DNA of 64,000 bases from a virus. This document shows, piece by piece, positions 6,219 to 55,245 of the stretch. The stretch is from the IMG/VR virus record IMGVR_UViG_3300009370_000018, positions 1-64,000 of that record, one strand, 5' to 3'. A program made the position numbers and the translations under genes. Under the pieces are notes generated by a model, which saw only the letters and a list, made by a program, of their open reading frames with translations, ran no database searches and was not told the DNA's origin. Every line of letters begins with the position of its first letter. The stretch's first letter is position 1.

Positions 6219-7826
6219 ATGGAAGTATGGAAAGGTGTAGTAGAAAATCGAATGGATCCTGAATTTTTGGGAAGATGCCAGGTGCGTATAACTGGATATC
6301 ATTCTCAATCTAAAGAGGAGACACCGACTAGTACATTACCTTGGGCATATCCTATGATTCCTTTTAATTCCGACCAAGGAAGCGTTAAGGCTCCTAAAGA
6401 AGGAACATGGTGTGTTGGTTTTTTTCAGGATCCTGATTGTGAGCATCCTCTTATTTTGGGGCAATGTGATACAGGACTTGCTAATTTCATGCCAGATCCA
6501 GATGACCCTAAACGTCCATTGGCCATATTACCAGATGGTGCAGTTCCTGGTGTGACTAGCAGACAATTTATGAGCGAGGCAGCTAATAGCGTGTCAACTT
6601 CAAGTCAAGGAGAGGCAATTATTCGTGATGCTGGTGCAGGTGAGAGCAATGCCGCAAAAATTAGAGGAGTTACATCACAGGTAATTAAGTCTGGTTTGCG
6701 AGCAACTGTTGGTGACCTACCTCGATTGATATATGATGCGACTGGGGAAGAGGACTTTACAACAAGCCAGTATATGGAAGTAAAGGGTATGTTTGAATCT
6801 CTTTCTGAAGAGGATTTAAATAAATTGAATCCCAATGACCGAAGTATAGTAGACGCTGTAATACAGACTACCACAGAAGAATTTTTAGATGCGATGACAG
6901 GTAAGATAAATTTAGTAGTTAATGAGTATAAACGGGTAGGTGATTATGTTGATGTTACAGATGATGGGGGAAGTGTTTATCGTGTTGCTGTAGCTAGAAC
7001 TGCGTCACAGTTAGAGAAAGATGCACTTGAATTAAAGCTCGCCGAAGATGCTTTACAGGGAGATGGAGTTTTAAGTAAGGAAATGGGGAAGTCTCGTCCT
7101 ACCTTAGATGAAATTGTGGATCATCTTCGTGCCAAAGATGCAGAAGCTGTTAATATAGAAGCTCCGTCTAGTGTAGAGGGGGAGGTGGTAGAGCCGGGAA
7201 TTGTAGAACCGGGAACTCCAGTAGGATCTGGTGCGTCATTGCAAAAGGTTGGACAGGTGGCGTATAATGCAGCAGAACTCATAGGAGGATTAACAACGGC
7301 TACTGCCTCTCTTGTTACCTTGGATGTTGGGGGAGATAAATTAAAGGCTACGAGTCAGGTACTAAGTGCCACAATTGCTGTGGGGAACCTTGCTCTTCCG
7401 GCAATAGATGCAGGGGTAGCAGTTGTAGATGCGCTAGATGCAGAAGCATTAAGTGCATATGGCGCAGAGATTGAAGGTTGGCTTGCAAATGCTGGAGAAT
7501 TAGCCAACCAGGGTGTTGAATCGATTGAAAATGTGGGGAGAAATGTTTTGGAGACTTTTTCAGATGCTCCTGATGTTCTTGATAAGATTGTTAGTGGGGA
7601 GTATGAATGGGATGATATAGAAAAATCAGTAGCCGAATTTAGCACTTCAGGATTAACTGGTGCCGGAATTAGAGTTGGAGTTGTCATTGCATTACAGCAA
7701 CCTGAAGTTCAAAAAGCATTAGCCAGAACACTTCAAGTTATTTCTATTCTTCAGAAAATACAACAAGTTATTAAATTGGGTAAGGTTATTCAGGTTAAGC
7801 TCAAAGCACAGAGCCTCATATCATAA
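6219..7826 (+). CDS. 5: gp5 N-terminal part: OB-fold hub protein without lysozyme
   Basis: Residues 1-100 carry the gp5/VgrG OB-fold: VENRMDPEFLGRCQVRITGYH, PWAYPMIPF, PKEGTWCVGFFQDPDCEHPLILGQ. This domain docks on the gp27 ring. The remaining 430 residues are alanine- and glutamate-rich and largely helical or hydrophobic (a long LITTATASLVTLDVGG-type stretch, ending VISILQKIQQVIKLGK). No T4-lysozyme active-site pattern was found, although the middle domain of T4 gp5 is a lysozyme. The gene ends in a double stop (TAATAA) and the spike gene follows with its own strong ribosome-binding site, so gp5 is two genes here. The function of the long C-terminal part is unknown. Confidence 0.75.
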   Translation: MEVWKGVVENRMDPEFLGRCQVRITGYHSQSKEETPTSTLPWAYPMIPFNSDQGSVKAPKEGTWCVGFFQDPDCEHPLILGQCDTGLANFMPDPDDPKRPLAILPDGAVPGVTSRQFMSEAANSVSTSSQGEAIIRDAGAGESNAAKIRGVTSQVIKSGLRATVGDLPRLIYDATGEEDFTTSQYMEVKGMFESLSEEDLNKLNPNDRSIVDAVIQTTTEEFLDAMTGKINLVVNEYKRVGDYVDVTDDGGSVYRVAVARTASQLEKDALELKLAEDALQGDGVLSKEMGKSRPTLDEIVDHLRAKDAEAVNIEAPSSVEGEVVEPGIVEPGTPVGSGASLQKVGQVAYNAAELIGGLTTATASLVTLDVGGDKLKATSQVLSATIAVGNLALPAIDAGVAVVDALDAEALSAYGAEIEGWLANAGELANQGVESIENVGRNVLETFSDAPDVLDKIVSGEYEWDDIEKSVAEFSTSGLTGAGIRVGVVIALQQPEVQKALARTLQVISILQKIQQVIKLGKVIQVKLKAQSLIS

Positions 7827-7847: not shown

Positions 7848-9173
7848 ATGGCTGCTCCGCATAAAAACACAACAGAGTTGCAAGAAAAAATTAATGATAC
7901 TTTTAGTCCGCCACCACCTCATAGTTGGGGCCATACTGATGGCGGACCGATTAGTCAAGTTGACCTTGATTCAATAAATATAAGTATTTCAACTTTACAA
8001 GAACAGGTTTTTGGCACCACTAAGGCTTTGCAGTCGCTTATAGAGGCTACCAAATTAGGGCTTATATCCATCCCTACTGATGGCATTACCGAAGGTCCTG
8101 CAAAGGATGCTGTCCTAAATGCCATTGAAAAATTTGGTAAAGCGGAACAAGAAGATGTTGCAGCCACTAAAACTTCTACTAATTTTATTGAGCGAACAGC
8201 AAAGATACAAGATAGATTAAATGAGGCAACTGATGTATTGAGTTCTATAGATCATCTTCAGAGACTTAGTGAGTTTGTTGACAGGGATGATTATCCTACC
8301 AACCGTCCTGTTCCTGGACTTCCTGCTGCTTCTTTTGTGGATGTTAATGACGCAACAGGAACAGTTACGATTGCAGATGTTCATGATAGTGCTCCATATG
8401 AACCAAATGAAGTTAATGTTCCTAGGTTGGCGCGTGGTGTATCGAAAGGAACTATAACAGAATCGCATATGGGTAGTAAGGGGCTTGTGATTACTCCGTC
8501 TGGTAGGATTGGAAAAGAACCAGACAATCCTTTCGCGGCAGTTTATCCTTTTAACCGAGTTGAGTTGTCTGAGAGTGGGCATGTTCGTGAGACAGATGAT
8601 ACCCCAGGGGCCGAAAGGATCAAGGAGTCGCATCGCACAGGAACTTTTTATGAAATTCATCCAGACGGAAAAAAGGTGAGCAAAGTCATGAATGATCATT
8701 TTAAGGCAACCATGGGAGACGATTGGCAGAAGGTTGAGGGATCGAGTGCTCTTCATACAGGGGGAGATGCCGAAACGTTTTCTCAAGGCTCGGCTTCAAT
8801 AATGGCTGTTGGAGTTGCGTCTATGTTTGGTATGGGGGCAGTTGATATTACATCGGTCGGAACTTTGCAATGCATGGGATATGCCGATGCTACCTATGGT
8901 TCTTTGGGGATTACAACTGTAGGAGGTGGAGCAGCCCTTACGTTGAGTGCCGATGGGGTTACAGATATTGGAGGCACGGGAGGAGTACATATAGGATCGG
9001 TTGGTAATATAGGTCTTAAATGCGGTGCCGCTTCGGCAGTACCAGGAGGCCTTGCGGCTGGTTCCAATATTGTTTTATTTCCTGCTGGTATAATGCTTCA
9101 GACGATAGGAGTTATAACACTCTCTGATAGTACCGATCCGTTAGCAGTTGGTGTGAAATCATTAACAGTTTGA
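7848..9173 (+). CDS. 5: gp5 C-terminal part: central spike protein
   Basis: This 441-aa protein starts after a strong Shine-Dalgarno (AAGGAGG, 7831-7837). The first 150 residues are helical and probably form a coiled coil. Residues 200-290 contain the gp5/VgrG motif before the needle: FNRVELSESGHVRETDDTPGAERI, SHRTGTFYEIHPDG. From about 300 the chain is glycine- and valine-rich with short repeats (GAVDITSVGTLQCMG, GSLGITTVGGG, GGVHIGSVGNIGL), as expected for a trimeric beta-helix spike. With the preceding gene it makes up one gp5 equivalent that pierces the outer membrane. It is in the same frame as that gene, but the TAATAA and separate ribosome site argue for true separate translation. It ends with TGA. 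Confidence 0.8.
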   Translation: MAAPHKNTTELQEKINDTFSPPPPHSWGHTDGGPISQVDLDSINISISTLQEQVFGTTKALQSLIEATKLGLISIPTDGITEGPAKDAVLNAIEKFGKAEQEDVAATKTSTNFIERTAKIQDRLNEATDVLSSIDHLQRLSEFVDRDDYPTNRPVPGLPAASFVDVNDATGTVTIADVHDSAPYEPNEVNVPRLARGVSKGTITESHMGSKGLVITPSGRIGKEPDNPFAAVYPFNRVELSESGHVRETDDTPGAERIKESHRTGTFYEIHPDGKKVSKVMNDHFKATMGDDWQKVEGSSALHTGGDAETFSQGSASIMAVGVASMFGMGAVDITSVGTLQCMGYADATYGSLGITTVGGGAALTLSADGVTDIGGTGGVHIGSVGNIGLKCGAASAVPGGLAAGSNIVLFPAGIMLQTIGVITLSDSTDPLAVGVKSLTV

Positions 9174-9211: not shown

Positions 9212-9607
9212 TTGGCCTATCCATCAACAAAAACATATCACGACTTGGATCTTAATTTTACAGCCCATCCTAATACCAAGAAACTAAATATCCTTACAGG
9301 AGAACAGTCCATAAAGAGGGCAGTCAGAAATTTGATATTGACAGAGCATAATGAAAGACCCTTTCATCCTGATCTCGGTTCTAGCGTCACGTCATATTTG
9401 TTTGAAAATGCAGACACACGCACGGCCACTAAAATACAACATGAAATAGAATCTGTATTAAATAATTATGAACCTAGAATAAATTTAAATAGGGTTAGTG
9501 TTCATGTGAGTCCTGATCAGCATGGTTTTTATGTTACGTTATATTATTTTATTGAAAGAGTACCAGCCGAACAAGTGTCAGAACTATTTTTAGAGAGAGT
9601 AAGATAA
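9212..9607 (+). CDS. 25: gp25 baseplate wedge (lysozyme-like fold)
   Basis: This 131-aa protein is the length of T4 gp25 (132 aa). It contains the EPR motif near residues 87-89 (NNYEPRINL) that is conserved in gp25/TssE proteins and places gp25 in the sheath-initiation interface. Other family features are LNILTGEQSIKRAVRNLI, NERPFHPDLGSSV and the terminal beta-hairpin (GFYVTLYYFIE). The start is TTG at 9212, preceded by GAAGGAAAA; no closer in-frame ATG gives the full N-terminus (AYPSTKTYHDLDLNF). It is followed after one base by gp6, as in T4-like clusters. Confidence 0.9.
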   Translation: MAYPSTKTYHDLDLNFTAHPNTKKLNILTGEQSIKRAVRNLILTEHNERPFHPDLGSSVTSYLFENADTRTATKIQHEIESVLNNYEPRINLNRVSVHVSPDQHGFYVTLYYFIERVPAEQVSELFLERVR

Positions 9608-9608
9608 C

Positions 9609-10214
9609 ATGGCGACTACATCAGTAACAAATGCGTTAAAGGTATCTGAACTTGACTTTGATCAAATAAAGGCTGCCTTTAAAACTTTTTTGAGAAATCA
9701 GGATCAATTTACCGATTATGATTTTGATGGTTCTGGCATGTCTATTCTGTTAGACATTCTTGCATATAACACACACTATAATGCATTTTATGCCAATATG
9801 CTGGCCAGTGAAATGTTTTTGGATAGTTCTGTTGTTCGTGATAATGTTGTATCAAGAGCAAAACAGTTAGGTTATACACCTAGGTCGATGAAAGGTTCTG
9901 TTGTCGATGTGAGCTTATCATTCATTAGTTCGACTCTTGGTGAGACAGGATCTGCAACACTTAATATTCCTAAGTATACGCCATTTGTGACAACAATAAA
10001 TGATGAGACATATACTTTTTTGACAACTAAAATAGAATCTGCAATAATGGTAGATCCTAATACAACCAGATCTACTTATATTGCCACAAATGTTCAGTTG
10101 AAGGAGGGTGTGGCATTTAGTGAAAGTTATATTTCTACAGGACAGTCATCTCAAAAGTTTATTATACCTAGTGCAAATGTGGATATTAGTACCTTATCTG
10201 TTACTGTAGATTGA
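9609..10214 (+). CDS. 6: gp6 baseplate wedge, N-terminal half, ended by an in-frame TGA
   Basis: The 201 residues match the start of gp6-type wedge proteins: LKVSELDFDQIKAAFKTFLR, DYDFDGSGMSILLDILAYNT, HYNAFYANMLASEMFLDSSV, AKQLGYTPRS, and then a beta-rich segment. Translation stops at TGA 10212-10214 (VTVD-stop), in the middle of a domain. The frame then remains open in the same phase to 11564. Read through, the product would be 651 aa, nearly the 660 aa of T4 gp6, which is essential for every wedge. A nonsense mutation, a sequence error, or suppression of TGA are all possible. TGA ends several other genes here, so the genetic code is not simply altered. Confidence 0.85.
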   Translation: MATTSVTNALKVSELDFDQIKAAFKTFLRNQDQFTDYDFDGSGMSILLDILAYNTHYNAFYANMLASEMFLDSSVVRDNVVSRAKQLGYTPRSMKGSVVDVSLSFISSTLGETGSATLNIPKYTPFVTTINDETYTFLTTKIESAIMVDPNTTRSTYIATNVQLKEGVAFSESYISTGQSSQKFIIPSANVDISTLSVTVD

Positions 10215-10274
10215 AACAATTTTAATAAAAAAGAAAATTATACTGAATTTGGGGCCACTAGTAATGTCTTCTTT

Positions 10275-11564
10275 GTGCAAGAGGTAGCGAGTCAGCACCA
10301 TGAGATATATTTTGGTGATGGGGTTGTGGGTAGAGGTTTATTGTCTGGGCAGGTTGTGAGGGCTGAATATGCAGTATCTATGTTGGGTCCGGAAGGAAAT
10401 AATATAAGAACCTTCACCTTAGGTGATACTTTTTATGCCGAAGATGTTTTAATTAGTTCGGCTATCGTCAACTTGACTGATCCTGATTCCTCATCTAATG
10501 GTGGTGAAGAAAGAGAGACAGTAGATTCAATTAAATTTTTGGCGCCTTTGAATTTTGAATCCCAAAATAGATCGGTGACTACTGGAGATTATCGTTCTCG
10601 GGTATTGAATGATGTTGTGGGAGTAGATGCCGTTAATGTCTGGGGAGGTGAGAATAATAGTCCGCCCGAATATGGCAAAGTTTATATATCAGTTAAGCCA
10701 AAAGAAGGATATGTTTTTTCAAATATAGACAAACAAAACATAAAGACCACAATAAGGGAACAAAATATAGCATCTATTACTCCTGTAATTGTAGAACCGG
10801 AATATCTATATCCTGCATTAACTATTCAGGTTATGTATGATCCATCTGAGACATCTTATTTGGCGACAAATTTAAGAGGACTTGTTCTTAGTACAATTAC
10901 CAACCATTCGGCTACTGCATTAAATAAATTTAATAGTTATTTCAGGTCATCTATTTTAAGTGGATTAATTGATTCCACAGAGAGGTCTATTAAAAGTAAT
11001 TTGATGGATGTGCAATTAAGAAAACCTTTCACACCATCCCTTAATATAAATTTGGATTATGTTATAGGGTTTTCTAATCCAATATATCATCCTCACGATG
11101 GCCATAAGCCTGTATTAAGATCTACATTGTTTTCTTATCTTCACAATAATTCTATATATTTGGATTGTTCTTTGGATGATACTGATGGTGTCGTGAGGGT
11201 TATTCAAATACGAGTAGACGGCAGTAGAAGAATAATTACAAATGTTGGTACAGTTAATTATTCTACTGGTGTTGTTGTGTTGGAGGACTTTGTTCCCTTT
11301 TCTATTAATAATGGATTGAGCACCATTAGTGTAACAGTAAAACCGAATGCTCGCGATCTTATTCCTTCGTTTAATCAAATTATCACAATTGATCCATCTG
11401 ATATTACTATTACTATGGTTGACGATACTTTATTAACATCTACTAATAGACAAGATATAACTGATGTGTTTAGTGTGTCTAGGGGATTGTATTCTACCGA
11501 TATTGATTCTGGATCTGATAGTGGAGGCGGAGGTGGAGGATCAGGATCTGGCGGGACATATTAG
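10275..11564 (+). CDS. 6: gp6 baseplate wedge, C-terminal half
   Basis: This is the continuation of gp6 in the same frame, open from 10215. The first usable start is GTG 10275, with no Shine-Dalgarno before it, so independent translation is doubtful. Just after the stop it reads NVFFVQEVASQHHEIYFGDG, then GPEGNN, TGDYRSRV, VWGGENNSPPEYGKVYISVKP and a terminal domain. This is the normal order for gp6/gpJ-type wedge proteins (FGDG loop, VWGG motif, KVYISVKPKEG). The C-terminus is an unusual glycine-serine tail. It belongs with the N-terminal half at 9609. Confidence 0.8.
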   Translation: MQEVASQHHEIYFGDGVVGRGLLSGQVVRAEYAVSMLGPEGNNIRTFTLGDTFYAEDVLISSAIVNLTDPDSSSNGGEERETVDSIKFLAPLNFESQNRSVTTGDYRSRVLNDVVGVDAVNVWGGENNSPPEYGKVYISVKPKEGYVFSNIDKQNIKTTIREQNIASITPVIVEPEYLYPALTIQVMYDPSETSYLATNLRGLVLSTITNHSATALNKFNSYFRSSILSGLIDSTERSIKSNLMDVQLRKPFTPSLNINLDYVIGFSNPIYHPHDGHKPVLRSTLFSYLHNNSIYLDCSLDDTDGVVRVIQIRVDGSRRIITNVGTVNYSTGVVVLEDFVPFSINNGLSTISVTVKPNARDLIPSFNQIITIDPSDITITMVDDTLLTSTNRQDITDVFSVSRGLYSTDIDSGSDSGGGGGGSGSGGTY

Positions 11565-11576
11565 GGTGATATTATA

Positions 11577-14500
11577 ATGGTAACTGCTAATGCAATCATA
11601 CGACAAACTTCATTTTTAATCAAGGATCAAGTTCCTGGTTTTGTTCGTGATGATCATCCGCAGTTTATTTCTTTTTTGGAACGATATTATGAGCATCTTC
11701 AAAGTGCCAATACTGGAATTTATGATTCCGTATCGAACACTTATTTTATGGGCCCTGTATATTTCAGTAAGAATGCTCTTGAGTATGTGGATCTTGATAC
11801 GGCTGATTTTGAGAGATTTCTTGATGGTTTTAAAAAAGAATTTTCGCCTAATATACCAAAGCAATTAGACTCTGTTGTAGACACTTCTACTTTCTATAAG
11901 AATATTTTGGATTTTTATCGGGCCAAAGGAACAGAAAATTCTTTCAAATTGTTGTTTCGTCTTTTATATAATGAAGAGATTGAACTCTATTATCCAAATC
12001 GAGATATCCTAACGGTTAGTGGGGGATCTTTTTCTCCAGAAGTTCGTATCCGACTTGGGACCACTGATAATATTGAAGATATTGTGGGGAGAAGAATCTA
12101 TGGCGCGACCTCTGGTGTCTATGCGACAGTCGAGCGTATTGAAAGAACCTATGATAACATTCAATTTCCTTGGAGAGATCCTGCGGATAGAGATGATGGC
12201 ATCACCTTTGTATATTTGAATAAGTTTTCTATTGGTAACACTACAGTGACACAGACAGAGTTTGATATAGGTGAACTGATCTATACAGGAAACGTGACGG
12301 GGAATCATGTCAACACGATCATTCATGCATCGCCCACAAAGGCTGTTTTCTATGACGACTTTAGTGGATATGCCAATGCCAATTATTTTCTCGCGCCTTC
12401 TGATAACAGGGGTTCATTGACAGACTCAATAGAAAGGCCTAATGGTGAGTATAGTTTGGTCAATTCAATTTCTACCATCACAGGGTCTTATGGTAGTCGG
12501 TGGTATGATAGATGGAGTAAGAGAGGAGCGAATGTTTATTCGTATGTTCCGTATGGGGCAAGTAATAACTATGTTAATCCAGCCATATCATTTATAGAGG
12601 ATGTATCGGCCTCTGGCGGGAAAGTTTTGGTGGTTGGCAATGAGGGCACAACACATGGTCCTATTCTTAATGGGAGTTTAGGTAAAGAAGACCGTGTAAA
12701 TTTAATCCATAACGATAATATTTTAATAGACAAGAATAAGTTGTATAGATTTTCTGTGCGCGTAAAAGATCCACATTCAGATAATTTTGATTTGAATTAT
12801 CGTTATGGCGAAGCCTTACAATTCAATAGTGGGTATTCGGCGTTAGGATCGGATGGCGAGTCCTATATTAAGAGTGGTTATATTCATCCTGGAGATCATT
12901 TTATTCTTAGTTCTGAATATCCTTCTGGGGCAATGTCTGCCAATGGAGCAGATTTAACTGGAAATAATCCTTCGTGGACTACAGATTGGAGAGTTTTTCA
13001 ATCATATGCGACAGGTTCAGGAGCGGGTCAGTTGGCTGGCCACGGAAACGTCATGGAATTCTCTAATACTGCCGCATCAAATTTTGAATATCCTAGGCGC
13101 GTCTTTTCGTATCCAAACGAAACGGCATCTTTTGGTGCAGATACGACATATATACGTCCTATTATTGATGTCGAGCATACTCATAATTATGTGCATAGGG
13201 CATATTCTGTGTTCGATGCGCCTGTAAGTTCTTATGAGATAGAGGAAAGCCCTTCTGCGTCCAATACCTATCCGATCCACATTCATGGTCCTAGTTATGG
13301 TGGTGGGTGGAGGGGTTATATCAATACGATTTCGAGTCTCATAACAGCATGTACCGATGGGTTTTCTACTGCAAATTCGTTCGAGGTAGAACTAATTGAC
13401 GATCTTTCTACCCAGTCAGCCTGGCCAAAAGCGACAGTATTTGCAAATGCCCATATCTATACGAGATCTGCTTTTGTTTCTAATACGACATACAATAAAG
13501 ATGCTCCCTTTATTATACAAATTCCAAAGGGAAAGCGTTGGGTCTTGTCGTATTATGCCTCTACGAATAATCATACTCAGACGGAATGTCGTATGGAGGT
13601 TTGGTTTAAGGATTCGACGCAGCCTAGTTCAAATATTTTTATGATAACCGACGGAGCGCCTACTAATTCTGCTGATGCGGGTTATTTTCATGCAACAGAT
13701 GCATGGGAAAGAAGGCACCTTGTTTTTAATTTTGCAAATACTACCTCTCCAATTCTTGGTGATGGTACAACTGATGATACAAATGTTACGCTCGTAGAGC
13801 ATTACGACCAGGGCCCTAATAGCTTCTCTTCTTTCGTGGGAGGAGGGGGAGGATTAAGATTTGCTAAAGATAGGACAAGTTCAGATGGGGCTGCCGATCC
13901 TTGGTCTGGTGATACCTATGCCGCAAATGTAGATACTATTCTATTAAAGCTCGCCTCTGCAAATTCGTCGGGTGCCTATGGTACTGTTTCGGTTAGAGTC
14001 GCAGGTATTCAATTAGAAGAGGCTGCTAATAATACTACAGTAAATGCCTCTCCTTTTAGATCTCAAGGCGACGACTCTGGTGGCAGTCAGATCTATGTGG
14101 ACTACTACAAGATCGAAGAGATGGGAACGATAGAACCTTTGACAGATGCTCCACAGTATCTTGACGAGTCGTCTCATCTGTCCACAAAGAGTGCAGTCAT
14201 GCAGGACAACTATTACTATCAGCAGTATGCCTATGACATCAGATCGCAACAGGACTTTAAGGACTATACGTCTATTGTAGAGGCGGCCGTGCATCCGGCT
14301 GGGTTCAAGAGATTTGGAACAAAGGTTGTGTATCCTGATGATGTTGGGCCAGGCACCAGTGGAACAGCTGGCTATAAAATGGCACCGGATGAGGAGGGTG
14401 GTGGTGATGATGAGAGTGGCGTTGCAATGAAAACATCATTCATTAGCAATCAAGACGATCCTTTTACTCCATATTCTGTCAACTCGTTAGCAGGCTGGTG

Positions 14501-17198
14501 GAGTGCGGATGCTATTTCGCCTATGCATATTGATTATAGAAAATTTTCTTCTGATAGCACGGCAAATGGACTTTGGGGATCCACTAGGAATCGTATGGTT
14601 ACTGGACTGATACCTTGGGGTCCGGTGTTGCCGTCTGGTGTATGGGCGAATGATTCGTGGCTTCATACGGGAGATAGATTTGCGACTTCTAATCCTGGGG
14701 TTTTTGGTGGTCCTGCTTCAGGGTTGCTCGCAAATCTTGTAGTGGAGAAAACAGCATTAAAAGGCGGGATTAGTGGGTTAAATTTGCCTGGGCCTCTTGG
14801 TAATTCATTGCGATTAACAGAGATGCATGATTCTGTTGGATTTTTGAGAATGTGGGGGCACACCGACACATTTACTGGGTTTGAGTACGCTAATAAAGAT
14901 ATGTTCCTTGACGACCATCATTTTTATCAGGTACTAGAACCATATAAGAAATGGTTGGTTAGTTGTTATGCAATGACATCTAATGTATTATCAGACACTT
15001 CTGAGAATTCTATTCTTATACGATTCTCTTTGGCAAATACTACGGGCTTTGATGTTGCATCTGCCGGAGGAGATGGTATTGTACAAGGAAATATGACTCT
15101 GTTTACTGAAGAAAATAAATGGGAAAGATTGTCTACAGTAATAGATCTATCTTCTTTGCCCCATACAAGAAGTTCTATGATAATTCAAATGGCAGATAGA
15201 ACATCACATGCTGATGCCGGGTTGACTACAGGAAATACTGTATATCATATTGAAGGTATGATGATCGAAGAATATGATCCTGTAATACACGGAACAGATC
15301 CTAACCTCACTCCGTCTCCATATATTGCTCCTGGAGTAAGTGCCGCTAATGTTTATATGTGGATGGATAAGAGTATTAATGAACATCATCTTTTTGCAAA
15401 TACACATAAAGGACTTTATTATCCTCCGCAGTATGTGGCTAATTCAGCTAATGGATATCCTGCTCTTCGATTTGCCGCAAACACAGTAAAGAATGATGCC
15501 AACGTCTATGCATACTCTTCTATTGGCGGTACGGTCAATTCTATTGCATTGGATCATGGAGATTCGACTGCAAGAAAGCTCCCGACATCTGGTCTACAGG
15601 CTCTAACGAATCTTTCAAATACTGCTCTTCCTCGTCCTGTGTCGAATGCATGGACGATTTTTGCAGTTGCAAAGACGAATCTTGCAGTCAATTCGACATC
15701 ATATGATACCACACTCAATCCAACTATTTTCAATTCTGGTTATGGTGGTAATAGAGATACTAATGTTCTTGTTCCAAATAAAGCCAGGGCAACCATGCAT
15801 CTTGGATATGATGTGGTTGGAGAAACAGGCGCAATTGTTACGAATATTGCAGGGGGCAATGAGGAACTGGCTCAGAGAGATGTAATGGCGCAGGCTAATA
15901 CAATCGAGGTGACTCATCTCGGCGTGATGGGTTCGGACTGGAGCGGACTTTCTTCTGCAAACACATCTTCTTCGTTCCGAATTATTGGTATGTCTATTCA
16001 AGCATCTCAACACGATGGAACCGGTGATCTTTTAAACTTTCATTTAGATGGGAGACGATTTTCAAATTCAGTCATAGGTTTCACGGAAGACTTCTCGACA
16101 GTACACCTTAGTCGGGCGGCATTAGTTGAAGAAGATCAACGTCCTTTTGTGACCTCGATAGGAAAATGGAAGCCAGTAAAGACAGGTTTGTTTCCCTTCC
16201 CTGTGTATCCAGAAGCCAATGGAATCATGGGTGTTGGTGCGACAGGGAATATTGTTTTCGACGTAGGCGTTTCTAATACAAATATACCTCCGCATACAGA
16301 GGAGGTCCCGAATCAAGGAGAAATTTGGGTTCGGAATGAAGGAGGAATTGATTTTGTTTCTCCTAATGGTTCTATTATTCCTATAGTAGATGGTGATTTT
16401 GGAGTCCCGGCAGGTTATAGCGCCAGCCATAGTAGGATGTATACTCCTTATGAATATGGTACGGGGTCGACTGTGGGCTTCGGAGTCACACCAATAATAG
16501 GAACCGGATCAGAATCATATATTATGTACTCAAACATGAATGCTGCTGCGAGATTTGGTGTGGCAACGGGAGAAGCACATTCGACGGCCTTTGGGTTTAA
16601 TGAACATTTTGTTCCTGTTGAATGGGATTCTGCAAATAATTCATGGTATGTGATATATAATGGAAAAACAATAACTCCTGCTCCATATACGGGTACCTTT
16701 GGGGTTCCTTTTATTCCTGATGCCGCAAACGGAGACTTTATTGTTGCAAGATTTACAAGGGACTCTCTCCTTGCCTGGTTCACAGATACGTTCGAGTCTT
16801 TTGTTTTCGCAAATAATGCAGACACCGCGGGCTACACTAATGCAGTAACGGCCGTTGTCGGAAGATTTCATTTTGATCCTCCTGGTACCGGTTATCAGAC
16901 CCAATTTGTCCATCAGACCAGAGAAGTTAAGGTACTATCTACAAATAACTTTGTTTCTGATTCATATAGAGATCTTGTTACAGGAACGGCAGACTGGGAC
17001 GGAGACATTGCCGAGGTTCTTGTGTTCAATGAGAAGCTGGCCAATACAGAAATTGCAAAGGTTGAAGGATACCTTGCATGGAAGTATGGCCTACGAGAAA
17101 ATTTGATTGGTAAGGATGGACTTGATTTTCATCCATATAGGTTTGAAGTTCCGCTTGCTGCCGGGGGCATTGCAAATAGCTTTTTTGCAGATTATTAA
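11577..17198 (+). CDS. 7: gp7-like baseplate wedge protein with LamG and carbohydrate-binding-like domains
   Basis: This 1873-aa protein lies between gp6 and gp8, the place of gp7 in T4 (1032 aa). Residues 1-190 are the N-terminal domain of this marine phage family (FLIKDQVPGFVRDDHPQFISFLERYY split by short loops, FYRAKGTENSFKLLFRLLYN, EIELYYPNRDIL). From about 640 there is a jelly-roll module with PKGKRWVLSYYAST and a VAGIQLEE ending; a weaker copy with KKWLVSCYAMTS and MMIEEYD follows near 1120-1230. Residues 970-1840 form a LamG/concanavalin-like region, opening with SLAGWWSAD, then WTIFAVAKT, and ending in TEIAKVEGYLAWKYGL. It is probably a wedge protein that also carries decoration or receptor-binding domains. 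The gp7 name rests on position and N-terminal recall. Confidence 0.65.
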   Translation: MVTANAIIRQTSFLIKDQVPGFVRDDHPQFISFLERYYEHLQSANTGIYDSVSNTYFMGPVYFSKNALEYVDLDTADFERFLDGFKKEFSPNIPKQLDSVVDTSTFYKNILDFYRAKGTENSFKLLFRLLYNEEIELYYPNRDILTVSGGSFSPEVRIRLGTTDNIEDIVGRRIYGATSGVYATVERIERTYDNIQFPWRDPADRDDGITFVYLNKFSIGNTTVTQTEFDIGELIYTGNVTGNHVNTIIHASPTKAVFYDDFSGYANANYFLAPSDNRGSLTDSIERPNGEYSLVNSISTITGSYGSRWYDRWSKRGANVYSYVPYGASNNYVNPAISFIEDVSASGGKVLVVGNEGTTHGPILNGSLGKEDRVNLIHNDNILIDKNKLYRFSVRVKDPHSDNFDLNYRYGEALQFNSGYSALGSDGESYIKSGYIHPGDHFILSSEYPSGAMSANGADLTGNNPSWTTDWRVFQSYATGSGAGQLAGHGNVMEFSNTAASNFEYPRRVFSYPNETASFGADTTYIRPIIDVEHTHNYVHRAYSVFDAPVSSYEIEESPSASNTYPIHIHGPSYGGGWRGYINTISSLITACTDGFSTANSFEVELIDDLSTQSAWPKATVFANAHIYTRSAFVSNTTYNKDAPFIIQIPKGKRWVLSYYASTNNHTQTECRMEVWFKDSTQPSSNIFMITDGAPTNSADAGYFHATDAWERRHLVFNFANTTSPILGDGTTDDTNVTLVEHYDQGPNSFSSFVGGGGGLRFAKDRTSSDGAADPWSGDTYAANVDTILLKLASANSSGAYGTVSVRVAGIQLEEAANNTTVNASPFRSQGDDSGGSQIYVDYYKIEEMGTIEPLTDAPQYLDESSHLSTKSAVMQDNYYYQQYAYDIRSQQDFKDYTSIVEAAVHPAGFKRFGTKVVYPDDVGPGTSGTAGYKMAPDEEGGGDDESGVAMKTSFISNQDDPFTPYSVNSLAGWWSADAISPMHIDYRKFSSDSTANGLWGSTRNRMVTGLIPWGPVLPSGVWANDSWLHTGDRFATSNPGVFGGPASGLLANLVVEKTALKGGISGLNLPGPLGNSLRLTEMHDSVGFLRMWGHTDTFTGFEYANKDMFLDDHHFYQVLEPYKKWLVSCYAMTSNVLSDTSENSILIRFSLANTTGFDVASAGGDGIVQGNMTLFTEENKWERLSTVIDLSSLPHTRSSMIIQMADRTSHADAGLTTGNTVYHIEGMMIEEYDPVIHGTDPNLTPSPYIAPGVSAANVYMWMDKSINEHHLFANTHKGLYYPPQYVANSANGYPALRFAANTVKNDANVYAYSSIGGTVNSIALDHGDSTARKLPTSGLQALTNLSNTALPRPVSNAWTIFAVAKTNLAVNSTSYDTTLNPTIFNSGYGGNRDTNVLVPNKARATMHLGYDVVGETGAIVTNIAGGNEELAQRDVMAQANTIEVTHLGVMGSDWSGLSSANTSSSFRIIGMSIQASQHDGTGDLLNFHLDGRRFSNSVIGFTEDFSTVHLSRAALVEEDQRPFVTSIGKWKPVKTGLFPFPVYPEANGIMGVGATGNIVFDVGVSNTNIPPHTEEVPNQGEIWVRNEGGIDFVSPNGSIIPIVDGDFGVPAGYSASHSRMYTPYEYGTGSTVGFGVTPIIGTGSESYIMYSNMNAAARFGVATGEAHSTAFGFNEHFVPVEWDSANNSWYVIYNGKTITPAPYTGTFGVPFIPDAANGDFIVARFTRDSLLAWFTDTFESFVFANNADTAGYTNAVTAVVGRFHFDPPGTGYQTQFVHQTREVKVLSTNNFVSDSYRDLVTGTADWDGDIAEVLVFNEKLANTEIAKVEGYLAWKYGLRENLIGKDGLDFHPYRFEVPLAAGGIANSFFADY

Positions 17199-18965: not shown

Positions 18966-21900
18966 ATGGCAAATTTTAATAAGTCACCATATTATGACGA
19001 CTATGATGAAAATAAAAAGTTTCTCAGAATTTTATTTCAGCCTGGGCGTCCTGTCCAAGCCAGAGAGTTAACACAACTTCAGTCTATTCTTCAGACTCAA
19101 ATTGAGCGTGGTGGTGCTCATATTTTTAGGAGTGGGTCTAAAGTTTTTGATGTTGGTGTGTCTGGAGGAGAAGAAAATTTTGACCCGATGAGCGTTCGAT
19201 ATGTCAAACTGAATCGAAATGACAAGTTTGGTAATATTGTAGATGTTTCAAATTTTATTGGAAAACAAATTAGGACTGAGAATTTTTCTGAAAGTTCGTC
19301 AATTGGTACGGTTGTGTCCGGTTCTGCAAATGCAGGAGGTGATCCTACAACATTATTTGTTAAATGGGATGAAGGTGAGCCAGAAGGGCTTATTCAAGAT
19401 AATCTTGTTTTAAGAACGTGGGATCCTGATGGTACCGGTTCTTATTATACTGCAAACGTGGCACCAGAATCTGATGTTTCTGGGCCATGTTCGGTGTATG
19501 AAACAAACGATGGTGTGTATTTTGTAAACGGTAAGTATGTGAAGGCCGATGCCCAGACTCTTGTGTTGGGAAAGTATACTTCAAATGTTACATATAGAAT
19601 TGGGTTCGATGTCATAGAAGAAACTGTCACTAGTGCGACTGATAGTTCTTTGTTGGATCCTTCTGCTGGATTTAGTAATTATACAGGGTCTGGTGCAGAT
19701 CGTTATAAAATAAATTTGGTTCTAACAAAAAAGGGTGATGGTACTACCATATCAGAAGTCCAGGCGTCGAGTACCATATCGACTGAAATAGGACAACTTG
19801 TTTCTACAAATAACTTTTTTGAAATTGCAAGAGTTGATGATGGACGACTAGTTCGGCAAGTAAAGACACCTTTTTATGCCGAGTTAGAAAATACGTTAGC
19901 CAGAAAGCTATACGACCAGTCTGGTAATTTTACAGTTGACCCACACATAGGTACTATAAAAGAAAAGACACCCGCAGGAGATGCTGGATTAGCAGGATCG
20001 GATGAGTATATCCTTACAATTGAGGGCGGTAAATCATATGTTCATGGATTTGAATATAATAATATAGGCCAGTCTCTTAAAGTTTCAATACCTAAAGCCC
20101 GAGAGACTGAAGTGGTGGAGCAAAGAGTTCCTATTATTTACAACAACTATGTTATGGTTCATGATATTCAGAATACCTCACCGCTCACTAGTTCTGGTGT
20201 TGGGACGGGTGGACTTCCTGCAAAAGGATTTTTTGATGTAGTTGCACAACCTCTTGTTTCATTGTTCTCGCAAGATAGTTATATCACAAATAGTTTATTT
20301 GGTGCAAATAATAATATTGATACTTTCCAAGGTGTGTCAAAGGCGGCCAATCTTTATAATTCTATTTTTGTGGGTACTGCAAGAGCAGAGGCATTGATTT
20401 ATGATAGCGGGGCCACCACTAGTGCGAGAAATCATCAATGGGATCAAGGGCGTTCGTATAGGTTATACCTTACAGATTTTCGGCCTAATTATGTAGACGG
20501 AGCAGCAAATGGAGTCAATAGAGCAGACATTGATGCCGTTTGGTATGACACAGCAGAAAGTTTAACCTACTATAAGTTTAAGAGTTTGGTTCAGAATGAA
20601 CACGGATTTAGTAATAGTAGCGATACTTCTACAGGCATAGAAGATTTTTCTTCAGGAGCCGATCATGTTTCTATTCAAGGGTTTACTGTAGACGGCGGCT
20701 ATTGGAATATTGAAAAGGGGAAGGTTGAGGCTGCAAATTCTACTTGGATTGGAGTACGAAGCCTTACTAACTCTACAAACAATTTTTATGCAAGAAGTTC
20801 ACCTCCTGCTTCTAATGGTTTTATTTCTAGAACTACGCGCAATGGAATTTCTTCTAGAAGAATGATTCTATTAGACGAAAGGACCAGGGCTCTGTGGTCG
20901 GATGCATATAATGGAGCAACGATTACGATTACTGGAGGCCCTGGAGAAGGTGATCGTAGAACTATTGTAGATTATATTGGAGGATCTACTGCAAATCAAG
21001 TATATGATCTTCAGGCTGCTGGTGACGAGACATTTATTCCTACTAATAATTTAGATGGAATTGCAAAACGAGGATTGGCTATTGTTGATCGTGAGTTTAG
21101 TGCGCCTCCTACGCGCGAGACGACATATCGTATTGATTTTAGTATGAAGAACGCAAGGTCTGTGGGCATTAATGCGAATACAAATGCGAATGGTTATGCC
21201 ACATCAGACTATAAGTATTACCGACAGCGAGAACAAGACACAAATATGGCGGCTGGAACTCTTACTCCTTTTACTAAAGGTGCGACTCCAAATTTCACTA
21301 CGCTTTGGAATATTGATGCTGTTAGTGGTGTCGAGCCTAAGGGAAGTCTTGGTGCCTTTACCAGAGACGGAATCTATTTAGGAACAAGAATAGACGGAGA
21401 TACAATTTACAAAGGGCCGCAAGCCGGAACTTTGTTAGGAGCAACAGGCCGGGCCGGGGTCCAGAGTCTTAATGCCCATGGATCAGGAACTGCAACAAGT
21501 AGTAATACTCATTTTACTGCACAGCGGACATTTAAAAATCAAACCTTTGCTGGTGTTGGGACTGGTAATAAATTGTCAATTGCTATAGGCCAGGTTCTTT
21601 ATGATCATGGTCAAAGATTCTTTCCATATGATGGAGCCAGTAATGTTTTAGAGGAAGATGAATTAAATAGATTTGTTCATGTTGTAGAGCAGACTACTGG
21701 GCGCGTTGTTGATTTTTCAAAAGGAGACGGAGATGGAAAGGTAGACATAAAATATGTGGCGGCCACTGGTCATTCTGCACATACATTGGATGTGACACTA
21801 CCTACGGGTGATGGATTTGGTGCAGGCGATTATGATGTCATTGCGACTATGCTTCACGAAAACATTGCTCCCAAGAAGAAAACATTAATCAAGGCTAACA

Positions 21901-24900
21901 CAGTTGATTTGGCGCCTGGGTTATTGACAACAGGACACAATTTGTCCAATGGACAGATTATAATTAAAAATAATTCTGGAAACAATGCTCTGATCGAGAA
22001 ACCCTTTGGCCAGACAGATGATCAGGCACCTCCTAGTTATGTTTTTCAATCATTAGGAATTGCCGATGTTCATTCTGTAAAGATTCTTGATACATGGGCT
22101 GAAGGAAATCCAACTTCTGATATGATCAAGGCCTTGGCCAATAATAATGCAGAAGCCTTGACGGCAACAGGCGCAAATAACATTACGACAAACTTTATAT
22201 TTGATTCTGGCCAGAGAGATCATATTTATGACCATGCATCCTTGAAATTAAAGCCTGATGCTCCTGTTCCCAACGGCCAATGCCTGGTTCTTTTTGATTA
22301 TTGGGATCACCAAACTTCGGAGATAGGTGCAGGATCTGTTGCAGGATTGCCTTCATATTTTTCTGTGGATTCTTATCAGCACACAGAAGACTTGACTATT
22401 ACGGATGTAACTGGAACGTTTTCTGTTGGCGATATTATTAAGGGCAATACTACTGGTGTGTCTGCAAAGGTGTTTGATGTTCCTGATAGTTCTACTAAGA
22501 TTCGGGTTGTAAATTTAGATCCTTTTGAGGGGAATACACATTTTACTTCAGAGGATTTTATTCATAAGGTTTCGGGTGTGGCTTCTTCAGATGAAGCAAA
22601 GGTGACTGCCGTAGCTAATCTACAGATTAGATACGAAAACATTCCTAGTTTTGTGGGAACTAGTAGAGTTTATTCTTTAACTGATGTGATTGATTATCGA
22701 CCAGCAAAAAATAGAGCCGATGTATTTAGAGCAAATTCGACAGTAAATAATGTAGTTATTCCTGTTGATGCTTCGGCTTATCCTTTGGGCCAATATCAAG
22801 ATTTGATGCCTAACTATAAATTTAAGGCATACATGGGGAGAATCGATAAGGTTTATTTGACCCCAGGTAGAGCTATAGAAGTTGCCAATGGTGTTCCTTC
22901 TTCTTATCCTGGGCCTCCTCATGTTCCTGAAAGCCAGGGCATGGTATTGTTTGAAGTTTTCTTGCCCCCATATGGTAGAAGAGATCGACAATATGATAAG
23001 GGAATTCCTTTACTTAATACGGTTACGAATAGGCGTTATACTGTAAAGGATATTGCTCGAATTGATAATAGGGTTAGAAATCTTGAATACTATGTGGCAT
23101 TGAATGCGCTAGAACGTGCAGCCAAAGATGATGTCGTTACTGATTCGCAAGGAATGACACGATTCAAGAATGGAATTTTGACTGATAATTTCAACGCATT
23201 TAATACGGTCAAGAGGCAGGTCGATGAAACTGTAAATATTGTAAATGGAGTTAAAGAGCCTACTTATTCTCTTGACATTAAGGAAGGTCATTTAAGACCG
23301 GCCACAACAGTTAACAGTACATCTTGGTCGTTTCAGTATAGTGATGGATCATCATCTGAAACTACTGCGTCTGGTACAGCAGATGACGCAATTACTATAA
23401 ATTATAATAGTGTTGTATGGTCTGATCCAGATGCTCCTTATCAGTTGTCGGCATCTGAATCGTCTGAATTTATTCAGGAGGAAGACGGTTCAACTGTGCT
23501 AGACGGTACTGGTACTGGAAGTGGTAAGGTCAATATTAATCCATTTAATGTGATGAGCTATCAGGGATTTATGGAAATAAATCCGAACTTTGATAACTTT
23601 ATTGATACAATAGATTCTGGTGAGGTTAGATTTGTCGATTTAACGACTGGTCAAAATGCCTTAGAACATATTGGTATTACTGAAGATGACGTGAGAAGTA
23701 GTGATTTTGTGGGAGGAACATACGAAGAAACATCTCAGATAACTAATCAAGAAATTTTTGGAAGTTGGACTAATACTGATGGTACTCCAGAATTTACTGC
23801 CGAGACAGAATATGATATTGATATGGCTGCAATGGGAGCCAGAATAACACAGTCAGGAACGCAAGGTGCCTGGGGCGATCTTAGTGACCACTATCATGTT
23901 ACGTTTACAGAACCACAAAAATTTACAGTAGAGTTGGGGGAAACTTATTTTAGATCATTTGCTAAGATTCCTAATATTCCTAAAGTCACAATACAAAAGA
24001 CTGAAAATTCTATTGTTGATATAAGGATCGCCACATATATGAGATCAAGAGATATTAGTGTGGTTGCTCGTGGATTGAAACCGAGAACGCCTGTCTATGG
24101 ACATTTTGATGGGTTGAACGTGAGTGGATATATGTCTTCGGCGAGTATGGTTAGGTTTGAAGGTAGTGGAAGAGGTGCCGATGCTATTAGTTTAGGGAAA
24201 CGTACTGGAACAAGAAGTGGTCAGAGAATACATGAATGGGTTTCTATTGATGTAGAGCCTAATGCCAAGGCAAAGTTAATTGGTGTGCGCGGGAACACTG
24301 CCTTCCTTACTGAAATAACTTACGGAACAGCTACTCCTAATAAGAAGTTTTCGGATAGTGGAATTACACTTGTGGGAAATACAACAGGGCCTTGTAATAA
24401 GAAAACAAATCAAAATGATATAGGTGTTTCTCAGAACATGATGTTTGATCCATCTCTCCCAGATGATGTTCAATACCGACCAATTACACCAAACCCAGGG
24501 TATGAACATAGGTCTGGATATGCCAGACCATTAGTTGCAGATGGTGATAATCGAAATCCTACGACTTGGATTACATTAGACCATGATGCTCCTTCAAGAT
24601 CAAATGCCTTGGCGTTACATTTTGCAGATCCTAGTACAGGAGATCCGGTCGAACTTACCGATACAGAATCGCTAACTACCTTTGGGAATATGATGACATC
24701 AATTAGTATTGTCAAAGGTAAAAATGCAGGAGCGCATGGTACAATTGTTGAATATGATGGTGCCACTAGATCGGCAAGAGTTGAATGGGGGACGAGCATG
24801 ACATCGAATGGTCCTGGTGCGGCTATTGTTGGTACTCTTGGCGCAGATGATAGAGATTATTATACACTTGCAGGTCCATGGAGTCCTGTATCATATGGTC

Positions 24901-27689
24901 CAGGTTCACTTTATACGTCTCCATATGGGGAGTATTATGGCACATTCCACCTTCCTAAGACCGATACGGCTAAGTTTACCGTAGGAACTAAAGCTCTGAC
25001 TATCAATGATCGTGGAGATAATAATCCATTCTTAGTTAGTTGTAGGGCATCTGCGCCTTATTTTTCGAGTGGATCTATTCATAGTCTCGTTGATGAGGCT
25101 TTTGCCACACGCGATGTGATACAAGGCGAGATTGTAAATGATACCCAGAAAGGTGTGAAGATTGCTACTGATGGATCGAATCAACTTTGGGCTACTAGAC
25201 AAACAGATGGCCAGCGTGGTATTTTATGGGTTACTACAGGAATTGATGTTTTACAAACAGGGGGTGTGAATTATCCTTATGTTACTTATGACCGTAAAAC
25301 GAGTAGTAAATATCTTCGTGGAGAAATGGTAGGTGCTTATTATAACTCCACAACAAAACAATGGACGTATTCGCCTAAACCTACACAATTACCTGACGGA
25401 AGTGGTAGTCTAGGTTCTATTACTTGGGATGAATTTTATGATGCACAATATGGAACTGCCGCTGGTTTTAGTACAGGTGAAATATCTAATATGAAATCTA
25501 GAAAGATAGGTCAGAGGCATAGTCTTGTGCGTGCTGGTGATGATGGAGGAACAGGGAACGGTAGGCAGGATTATTGGAGATTCCATGATCAGCATAGTAG
25601 ATTCCCCTCTATTGTTCCTTCTGGCGGAACTATTGCTGCCTCTAGGGGGTTTGCCACAGTAAAGGATGGAGAAATTATAGCGGCAACAGTTACGGATCAT
25701 GGTGCATGTATACAGAATGAGGGTGTGGAACCCAAACCTTCTAAATGGACTGCATTATGGACTGGTAATCAGCCTTATGGTAAGGCGGTTTCTGGCGGAC
25801 TAGAAGGTACGAGATCTAGTCATCAATTCGTGGGCGAATCAAGAATGTCCTCAGATATTAATGATATTAGAAATGCTCTTCCATATGTGGATGAAATTTT
25901 AACTGATATTGAAAACGGAACACCTGGAACAATTCCGTTTAACTTTTTGACTGATCCTTTGGCGCAATCATTTACTGTGTCGAAAGAGAAATATACACAT
26001 GGAATATTTTTAACTGGTGTAGATTTATGGTTTGCTGAAAAGGGTTCTTCTGCCGCAGCAGATGTTTTTGTTGAAATGAGAAAGATGGTCAATGGTTATC
26101 CTGATCAAGGGCCTATGAATTGTGTTGGTGGTGCCGATCAGGCGATTGCAAAAGTTGATTGGGATGACATAAACCATAAGAATGGTGTAGTGGAAGGTGC
26201 TGGGGCAACTGGATTGCCAAATGCGAGTGATGCAGATATGAACACAGAGGGATCAAGTGTGACTACATTTATGTTCCCGGCTCCTGTATATTTGCTTCCT
26301 GGTCATGACTATTGTTTTGTTGTGCGACCTATGCCAGCAGTTAATAAATCTATTTACTTATGGTCATCAGATCTTCGTGGAAATATATTGGGAAGTTATG
26401 AGAGTAATGCTCCTACTTCTATAGATTTGCACAAGGCCGGGAAGCATTTCAATGGATCTCTTTTCTTGTCGCAGAATGCAAGGACATGGGAACCAGATCA
26501 GTATAAAGATTTGATGTTTAGACTTAGAAGAGCCGAATTTACACAGTCTCAAGGAGAGGCGGTACTCCGAGCAGGAACAAAGAGGTGGGCAATTTTACGC
26601 GATGCAGACGGAAAACGTATTTCTGGCCAACAAGAAATTCCTCTTACGGCAAATGTGGATTTTGATTTCTTCCATTTTACTTCCGAGTCTGTACTTCCAT
26701 TCGGGTATGATAAGCAATCTGGAGGAATAACATATCAATATACTGCGCCAGATACTGATGATGTCACATCGGGATATACTACTATTCTTCCTAAGACGGA
26801 TATATATCCCGACAGAACATTAAGATTGGAGAAGAATAAAGAACATGATTTGGGTTCTTTTGAAGTTAAAGTTCTTCTAAGATCACCTGGTGACACTAAA
26901 GTTAGTCCTGTTCTTGATCGATCTACGATGCAATTAATCGCCTTGAAGAATAATATTACAGACGGACGAATTCAAAATGAGCAAATTGTGTTTTCGGGTT
27001 CTGGCGGACAGGGTTATACAGTAGGCGATAGATTTAAGTTGGTTCCTTCAAATTCAGATCATGCCAATAGTGATATAGGATATGTTGAAGTGTCAGAAGT
27101 TAATGCAGAGGCTAGCGATGCGATTACAAAATTAGTAGTAAGCTCTGATTATCCAGGAAGGAATTATTCAGAAACGCCTACTGTTGTGCAGCACACTTCT
27201 GGAGGTACTCTTCTTCCTGATAATGCGATTATTATTCAAGGAGAGACAGGTGCCATAGGAGGCAATTCTAAGTTCCGATATGTGACAAAGCCTGTGAAGT
27301 TAAGAAGCGGATTTGATGCAATGGACTTAGAAGTCAAGATGGACATTCATAAGCCATTTGGGTCAAAGGTGCATGTATATTATAAGGTGTTGCACAAAGA
27401 TGATGCCGATCCTTTGGGATTTGATAATAAGAAATGGGTTAAGATGGAGCAGGATAGTCCAAACAACGAGAGGCATACTATTTCTAAGAATGATTGGAGT
27501 TCAAAGAATCGGCTTGATATGATGGAGCATACTTTTGGGACTGGAGATAATGATATGATTTCTTATAAGGATTCCCGTGGACATAATTATGATGGATTTA
27601 AATACTTTGCAATCAAGATTGTTGGATTTGCTGATAATGCTACGCAAGTCCCTGTTATAGGAAACCTAAGAGTTGTTGCCGTAACATAA
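18966..27689 (+). CDS. DUF4815 baseplate/fibre-attachment protein (gp10-like position)
   Basis: This 2907-aa protein opens with the DUF4815 signature (NFNKSPYYDDYDENKKFLRIL, GRPVQARELTQLQSILQ, GGAHIFRSGSK). T4-like phages of marine bacteria usually encode such a protein next to gp8. Later hallmarks are VYSLTDVIDYRPA around residue 1240, IARIDNRVRNLEYYV, and a C-terminal region from about 2320 (FLTDPLAQSFTV, FLTGVDLWFAEKG, FVVRPMPAVNKSIYLWSSDLRG). An insert near 635-700 (YNGATITITGGPGEG) resembles modules in gp8 and gp15. It probably sits at the baseplate rim and anchors fibres, the place of gp10 in T4; the exact role is not known. The ATG at 18966 follows AAAGGA. Confidence 0.7.
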   Translation: MANFNKSPYYDDYDENKKFLRILFQPGRPVQARELTQLQSILQTQIERGGAHIFRSGSKVFDVGVSGGEENFDPMSVRYVKLNRNDKFGNIVDVSNFIGKQIRTENFSESSSIGTVVSGSANAGGDPTTLFVKWDEGEPEGLIQDNLVLRTWDPDGTGSYYTANVAPESDVSGPCSVYETNDGVYFVNGKYVKADAQTLVLGKYTSNVTYRIGFDVIEETVTSATDSSLLDPSAGFSNYTGSGADRYKINLVLTKKGDGTTISEVQASSTISTEIGQLVSTNNFFEIARVDDGRLVRQVKTPFYAELENTLARKLYDQSGNFTVDPHIGTIKEKTPAGDAGLAGSDEYILTIEGGKSYVHGFEYNNIGQSLKVSIPKARETEVVEQRVPIIYNNYVMVHDIQNTSPLTSSGVGTGGLPAKGFFDVVAQPLVSLFSQDSYITNSLFGANNNIDTFQGVSKAANLYNSIFVGTARAEALIYDSGATTSARNHQWDQGRSYRLYLTDFRPNYVDGAANGVNRADIDAVWYDTAESLTYYKFKSLVQNEHGFSNSSDTSTGIEDFSSGADHVSIQGFTVDGGYWNIEKGKVEAANSTWIGVRSLTNSTNNFYARSSPPASNGFISRTTRNGISSRRMILLDERTRALWSDAYNGATITITGGPGEGDRRTIVDYIGGSTANQVYDLQAAGDETFIPTNNLDGIAKRGLAIVDREFSAPPTRETTYRIDFSMKNARSVGINANTNANGYATSDYKYYRQREQDTNMAAGTLTPFTKGATPNFTTLWNIDAVSGVEPKGSLGAFTRDGIYLGTRIDGDTIYKGPQAGTLLGATGRAGVQSLNAHGSGTATSSNTHFTAQRTFKNQTFAGVGTGNKLSIAIGQVLYDHGQRFFPYDGASNVLEEDELNRFVHVVEQTTGRVVDFSKGDGDGKVDIKYVAATGHSAHTLDVTLPTGDGFGAGDYDVIATMLHENIAPKKKTLIKANTVDLAPGLLTTGHNLSNGQIIIKNNSGNNALIEKPFGQTDDQAPPSYVFQSLGIADVHSVKILDTWAEGNPTSDMIKALANNNAEALTATGANNITTNFIFDSGQRDHIYDHASLKLKPDAPVPNGQCLVLFDYWDHQTSEIGAGSVAGLPSYFSVDSYQHTEDLTITDVTGTFSVGDIIKGNTTGVSAKVFDVPDSSTKIRVVNLDPFEGNTHFTSEDFIHKVSGVASSDEAKVTAVANLQIRYENIPSFVGTSRVYSLTDVIDYRPAKNRADVFRANSTVNNVVIPVDASAYPLGQYQDLMPNYKFKAYMGRIDKVYLTPGRAIEVANGVPSSYPGPPHVPESQGMVLFEVFLPPYGRRDRQYDKGIPLLNTVTNRRYTVKDIARIDNRVRNLEYYVALNALERAAKDDVVTDSQGMTRFKNGILTDNFNAFNTVKRQVDETVNIVNGVKEPTYSLDIKEGHLRPATTVNSTSWSFQYSDGSSSETTASGTADDAITINYNSVVWSDPDAPYQLSASESSEFIQEEDGSTVLDGTGTGSGKVNINPFNVMSYQGFMEINPNFDNFIDTIDSGEVRFVDLTTGQNALEHIGITEDDVRSSDFVGGTYEETSQITNQEIFGSWTNTDGTPEFTAETEYDIDMAAMGARITQSGTQGAWGDLSDHYHVTFTEPQKFTVELGETYFRSFAKIPNIPKVTIQKTENSIVDIRIATYMRSRDISVVARGLKPRTPVYGHFDGLNVSGYMSSASMVRFEGSGRGADAISLGKRTGTRSGQRIHEWVSIDVEPNAKAKLIGVRGNTAFLTEITYGTATPNKKFSDSGITLVGNTTGPCNKKTNQNDIGVSQNMMFDPSLPDDVQYRPITPNPGYEHRSGYARPLVADGDNRNPTTWITLDHDAPSRSNALALHFADPSTGDPVELTDTESLTTFGNMMTSISIVKGKNAGAHGTIVEYDGATRSARVEWGTSMTSNGPGAAIVGTLGADDRDYYTLAGPWSPVSYGPGSLYTSPYGEYYGTFHLPKTDTAKFTVGTKALTINDRGDNNPFLVSCRASAPYFSSGSIHSLVDEAFATRDVIQGEIVNDTQKGVKIATDGSNQLWATRQTDGQRGILWVTTGIDVLQTGGVNYPYVTYDRKTSSKYLRGEMVGAYYNSTTKQWTYSPKPTQLPDGSGSLGSITWDEFYDAQYGTAAGFSTGEISNMKSRKIGQRHSLVRAGDDGGTGNGRQDYWRFHDQHSRFPSIVPSGGTIAASRGFATVKDGEIIAATVTDHGACIQNEGVEPKPSKWTALWTGNQPYGKAVSGGLEGTRSSHQFVGESRMSSDINDIRNALPYVDEILTDIENGTPGTIPFNFLTDPLAQSFTVSKEKYTHGIFLTGVDLWFAEKGSSAAADVFVEMRKMVNGYPDQGPMNCVGGADQAIAKVDWDDINHKNGVVEGAGATGLPNASDADMNTEGSSVTTFMFPAPVYLLPGHDYCFVVRPMPAVNKSIYLWSSDLRGNILGSYESNAPTSIDLHKAGKHFNGSLFLSQNARTWEPDQYKDLMFRLRRAEFTQSQGEAVLRAGTKRWAILRDADGKRISGQQEIPLTANVDFDFFHFTSESVLPFGYDKQSGGITYQYTAPDTDDVTSGYTTILPKTDIYPDRTLRLEKNKEHDLGSFEVKVLLRSPGDTKVSPVLDRSTMQLIALKNNITDGRIQNEQIVFSGSGGQGYTVGDRFKLVPSNSDHANSDIGYVEVSEVNAEASDAITKLVVSSDYPGRNYSETPTVVQHTSGGTLLPDNAIIIQGETGAIGGNSKFRYVTKPVKLRSGFDAMDLEVKMDIHKPFGSKVHVYYKVLHKDDADPLGFDNKKWVKMEQDSPNNERHTISKNDWSSKNRLDMMEHTFGTGDNDMISYKDSRGHNYDGFKYFAIKIVGFADNATQVPVIGNLRVVAVT
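20866..21060 (+). other. Shared beta-module, copy in the DUF4815 protein
   Basis: This segment reads ILLDERTRALWSDAYNGATI, then TITGGPGEGDRRTIVDYIGG. It has the same plan as segments in gp8 (17955-18160) and gp15 (60190-60410): a strand, an F/Y-x-N-x-x-I-x-I-T-S/G-G turn, a charged loop and a final D-Y strand. It looks like one small beta-domain inserted in three unrelated virion proteins. Confidence 0.4.
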
Positions 27690-55243: not shown

Positions 55244-55245
55244 AA

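Follow-up and report, generated by a model that had tools for sequence, protein, structure and literature searches.

The window analysed here, a 64,000-nucleotide stretch of viral DNA, comprises bases 1-64000 of a 68,395-base record. The record carries T4-type structural genes for the baseplate (gp25, gp6 and other wedge and hub subunits), head closure, terminase, sheath, tail tube and portal; because the rest of the T4-type genome is absent, it is probably a fragment. Translation of 9609-11564, which encodes the T4-type baseplate wedge protein gp6, revealed one in-frame TGA at 10212-10214, as the initial annotation had stated. The gene starts with the ATG at 9609 and consists of 201 codons, the TGA, and 449 codons closed by a TAG at 11562-11564. 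With the TGA counted as one codon this gives 651, the combined length proposed earlier. The features of the locus are as follows.

9212..9607, plus strand: gp25-type baseplate wedge gene, directly upstream of gp6; TTG start, TAA end; intact; phrog_261 (E 1.4e-41)
9609..10211, plus strand: gp6 N-terminal part, 201 codons; PF21379; phrog_219 positions 4-189
10212..10214, plus strand: in-frame TGA, codon 202; in the predicted model, a turn between strands 191-200 and 203-207
10215..11564, plus strand: gp6 C-terminal part, 449 codons, TAG end; PF21387; phrog_219 positions 199-597; close to its beginning, no start codon is preceded by a ribosome site
10275..10277, plus strand: first in-frame GTG past the gp6 TGA, without a Shine-Dalgarno sequence; its use would lose the conserved TSNVFF block

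Both parts of gp6 matched the family phrog_219 ("baseplate wedge subunit"), the N-terminal part with an E value of 2.4e-60 and the C-terminal part, which reaches position 597 of 598, with 3.7e-95. The flanks of the TGA are adjacent stretches of this one profile, with no gap and no frameshift. The order of the profile matches and the alignment of the nearest relatives across the TGA (see below) bore out the view that the two parts share a frame without a gap. A frameshift was rejected as an explanation, since one frame is used on both sides. The interruption exceeds chance only in a trivial sense: 449 open codons carry the family profile onward in frame.

A PDB search with a profile of 56 gp6 sequences returned T4 gp6 (E 6.3e-87), and the best solved Foldseek matches of the predicted gp6 model were gp6 chains from the baseplates of KP1 and T4. 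As in T4 gp6 (phrog_219; PF21379 and PF21387; PDB 5iv5 and 5hx2), both halves follow the profile order and the gp25 neighbor is in place. The gp6 start lies just past the end of the gp25 stop at 9607, with equal spacing in the contigs of loci L040, L122 and L124. The gp25 product is 66-68% identical to those of five nearest-clade contigs and 54% identical to that of L124. Its match to the whole profile and its place after gp25 among baseplate genes mark it as T4-type gp6, and we read it as an ordinary gene present in a single copy. It differs from T4 gp6 in the TGA at codon 202 and in a Gly/Ser-rich C-terminal tail. A single uninterrupted frame is usual for T4-type gp6, although it is not part of the definition by sequence; here it is broken at 10212-10214. 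In T4, gp6 is described as a 12-copy baseplate ring, and a missing component halts wedge assembly (PMC3004832). That gp6 would be indispensable here as well is carried over from T4 by analogy.

Relatives at the stop site

Two scans of viral contigs yielded at least 118 gp6 loci (38 plus the best 80), with at least three contigs present twice (L007/L106, L008/L108 and L010/L110). The 118 loci were read in frame from the first to the last matched base (66,771 codons), and 101 of them extend across query residues 15-550. Among these listed matches, none of the 118 contained an internal stop; the TAA of L066 is its natural end. The TGA site is covered by 114 of the loci (all except L017, L020, L026 and L063), one of which, L028, is gapped there. 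When 19 further loci, several of them on re-fetched contigs, were compared, 17 were matched, and none of these had an internal stop within the match.

The nearest clade comprises six contigs, about 55-59% identical to the window in gp6. All six align gaplessly across the TGA, and all have a sense codon there, which answers how close relatives read this position: Ser in 3300009129_000129, 3300009370_000581, 3300001680_000688 and 3300033144_005645, Asp in 3300048886_001588, and Gly in 3300049901_000588. Their gp6 genes are intact, four being full length (646-648 aa) and two remaining open as far as the contig reaches (350 aa). Many other residues occupy the site elsewhere, and none is conserved. 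An intron, intein or insertion was rejected, since the nearest relatives align at the site without extra sequence.

A DNA pattern search for a near-identical sibling contig gave no match in collections that may omit near-identical records. Neither the gp25 scan nor the genome-contig scan provided a closer relative, and blastn of 9212-17198 against cultured phages returned only short matches, covering at most 3% of the query among the matches listed. With identities of just 55-59% to the nearest relatives, the comparison would be compatible with a functional TGA confined to this lineage.

The identity of gp6 to L040 is 122/201 (60.7%) before the stop and 257/442 (58.1%) after it. The corresponding values are 55.2% and 56.1% against L124, and 55.2% and 57.7% between L040 and L124. 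Judged by these identities, the two halves have evolved alike, and the C-terminal part is not decayed. In a simple neutral simulation, the median number of substitutions before a second in-frame stop was 21 (1.6% of sites), and 95% of runs had such a stop by 91, so a truly dead gp6 allele must be young. A long-standing pseudogene was rejected, given a C-terminal part conserved like the N-terminal part and no second stop. The intact C-terminal part fits an error, a recent mutation and continued use by readthrough equally well and does not separate them.

Possible decoding of the TGA or restart downstream

With a recoded code or a suppressor tRNA, the TGA would encode an amino acid in the phage or its host. 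There is precedent for this: phages that use table 4 (TGA = Trp) have been predicted, and 11 of 73 carry Sup-TCA tRNAs (PMC11210395). Phages with table 4 or table 15 (TAG = Gln) resemble the present case in having an in-frame stop in a structural gene. However, a TGA-recoded phage would be expected to have many in-frame TGAs and not to use TGA as a stop, whereas here one such codon was seen, compared with 364 TGG codons across 37 ORFs (37 of the 42 listed, with gp6 counted as two and five small or terminal ORFs omitted). Moreover, TGA ends 6 of 36 ORFs of at least 90 aa when the gp6 N-terminal part is counted, that is, five others, and one ORF of 84 aa. The annotated use of TGA as a normal stop at 9173 and 59480 was seen at both positions, the latter within a stop/start overlap, and also at 56628, at 53488 and in two minus-strand ORFs. 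A suppressor tRNA on the phage side, raised earlier as something to look for, was not found: ARAGORN detected no tRNA genes on the 68,395-base record, itself a fragment. Recoding was rejected because TGA ends other ORFs, and we assign it a near-negligible probability. Selenocysteine was likewise rejected, as no hairpin follows the TGA and no Cys occupies the site in the relatives examined.

Readthrough under the standard code could be programmed or incidental. A programmed event would yield the full gp6 protein alongside an N-terminal fragment of 201 residues, comparable to phage Qbeta, in which A1 protein is made through stop readthrough in a structural gene (PMC12469967). The frame, the conservation and the intact C-terminal part are compatible with this, and the Qbeta coat/A1 arrangement is alike in that a stop is followed by a long in-frame extension. 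Yet the Qbeta short form is the complete coat protein, whereas the fragment here would, on the predicted model, end within a beta-domain. The stop is conserved in none of the 118 loci listed and in none of the nearest six. No stimulatory or SECIS-like fold was seen after the TGA (z +1.95 for 60 nt and +1.64 for 111 nt, weaker than shuffled sequences, with pseudoknots outside the method). We regard programmed readthrough as highly improbable, and the same low standing applies to the idea that a T4-type lineage recently placed its essential baseplate ring protein under UGA readthrough. If true, gp6 dosage or a short N-terminal form would be set by the UGA leakiness of the host, and a translational timing or host-dependence switch would act on baseplate assembly. 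Incidental, non-programmed readthrough would instead require that the TGA is real, that the host tRNA-Trp misreads UGA often enough, and that the residue is tolerated in a variable turn. The site is such a turn, the downstream frame is intact, and a luciferase reporter showed about 12% UGA readthrough in Escherichia coli, but for two species of Pseudomonas the values were only 0.08% and 0.04% (PMC9481147). The level is therefore host dependent. In addition, the T4 baseplate requires 12 copies of gp6 (PMC3004832), and no relative among the matches listed uses such readthrough. We consider sufficient background readthrough unlikely.

The predicted gp6 model (overall pTM 0.55, mean pLDDT 77.6) supports the local fold better than the domain arrangement. 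It places the stop in the two-residue turn of a beta-hairpin within a beta-rich region, where relatives often have a longer loop. Because of this position, the protein would probably accommodate a residue at the site if the codon is read, and a chain end at the site would be predicted to cut a domain.

The latter prediction bears on translation of gp6 as two separate proteins that assemble. Split baseplate proteins do occur, since the same clade truly encodes gp5 (baseplate hub, "tail lysozyme" family phrog_430) as separate genes:

6219-7826: gp5, first ORF; phrog_430 profile 19-104
7848-9173: gp5, second ORF; phrog_430 profile 322-470; ATG 7848 behind AAGGAGG, -11.6 kcal/mol

Neither of these two ORFs matched the phrog_430 profile between 104 and 322. 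Homologous gp5 pieces are also found on separate ORFs in the L040 and L124 contigs, and the split looks like a clade trait. The ATG at 7848 contrasts with GTG 10275, the first in-frame ATG, GTG or TTG past the gp6 TGA, which scored +0.7 kcal/mol; the gp6 start scored -4.8, and random positions had a median of -2.9. This agrees with the earlier remark that the C-terminal part lacks a ribosome site. Later start candidates at 10341 and 10356 look stronger (-6.5 and -7.1 kcal/mol, close to -7.4, the 5% tail for random positions), but they lie beyond the conserved YFGDG block. The gp5 arrangement has the look of a functioning multi-gene split, and gp6 is without such features. A split gp6 with its own downstream start was rejected on the lack of a start or ribosome site close to the break and on the break inside the predicted beta-domain; we judge it extremely unlikely.

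A probable isolated nonsense codon

We consider it likely that the gp6 TGA is an isolated, non-programmed nonsense codon without a dedicated decoding mechanism. Our first choice, for which we see about an even chance, is that a single base of the metagenome consensus is wrong there. It is also possible, although we hold this only tentatively, that it would be a real, recent substitution in the assembled genotype, in which case the genome would be dead or carried by complementation. The options listed in the initial annotation therefore fared differently: error or an isolated allele, recent or defective, is favored, and code reassignment, two-part translation and conserved readthrough are disfavored.

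In support of an isolated defect, there is one lesion: apart from gp6, the family-matched ORFs show no sign of disruption by a stop or frameshift (gp5 being two proper genes). This comparison with PHROGs covered 33 ORFs or ORF parts, 25 of which matched; outside it were five tail-region ORFs, including those of 4822, 2907, 2089 and 1039 aa. Against an error, the 68-kb consensus does not seem generally error-ridden, as the ORFs of 4822, 2907 and 2089 aa are all open. Stop-making changes account for 4.4% of all single substitutions in 21,987 codons. The probability of at least one stop-making error in a record of this length would be 25% at 1e-4 errors per base and 2.9% at 1e-5, both rates being assumed. 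These odds are ordinary, because the gp6 feature was picked out of many, and as a defect the TGA is not statistically remarkable. The literature on UGA readthrough in phage structural proteins, on in-frame stops in viral genomes and on assembly errors yielded mainly general background. Errors of long reads are the subject of the work on Kastor (PMC12007338), on which none of the present argument rests.

As an error or an isolated allele, the TGA would be a warning that a lone nonsense codon in a metagenome contig needs checking against the reads before any mechanism is put forward for it. Were it real and fixed, gp6 would stand out as an essential structural protein of a tailed phage that is made only through stop-codon readthrough, a rare situation, and the UGA leakiness of the host would be a testable limit on infection.

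Other genes on the record

The tail region contains three very long ORFs, of 4822 aa (27969-42437), 2907 aa (18966-27689) and 2089 aa (46948-53217). In Pfam, the 4822-aa ORF had no match, the 2907-aa ORF matched DUF4815, and the 2089-aa ORF gave only a weak PD40 match; all three are possibly tail-fibre-like proteins. A piece of the 2907-aa ORF was found in one of four records, the window's own, and was absent from three clade contigs.

The minus strand encodes, at 977-1957, a tail-tube family (phrog_45) protein of 326 aa, and an ordinary tube protein lies at 64823-65413 of the record. We take the former to be perhaps a tube initiator of the gp54 type. The tail sheath protein (668 aa, record positions 62769-64775, with its start inside the window) seems, from the alignment, to have a large insertion, because its residues 3-666 match positions 22-474 of the 496-position phrog_23 profile. 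Finally, two tail-fibre-type ORFs, 54833-55243 (assembly protein-like) and 55192-55542 (tail fibre protein), overlap by 52 bases.
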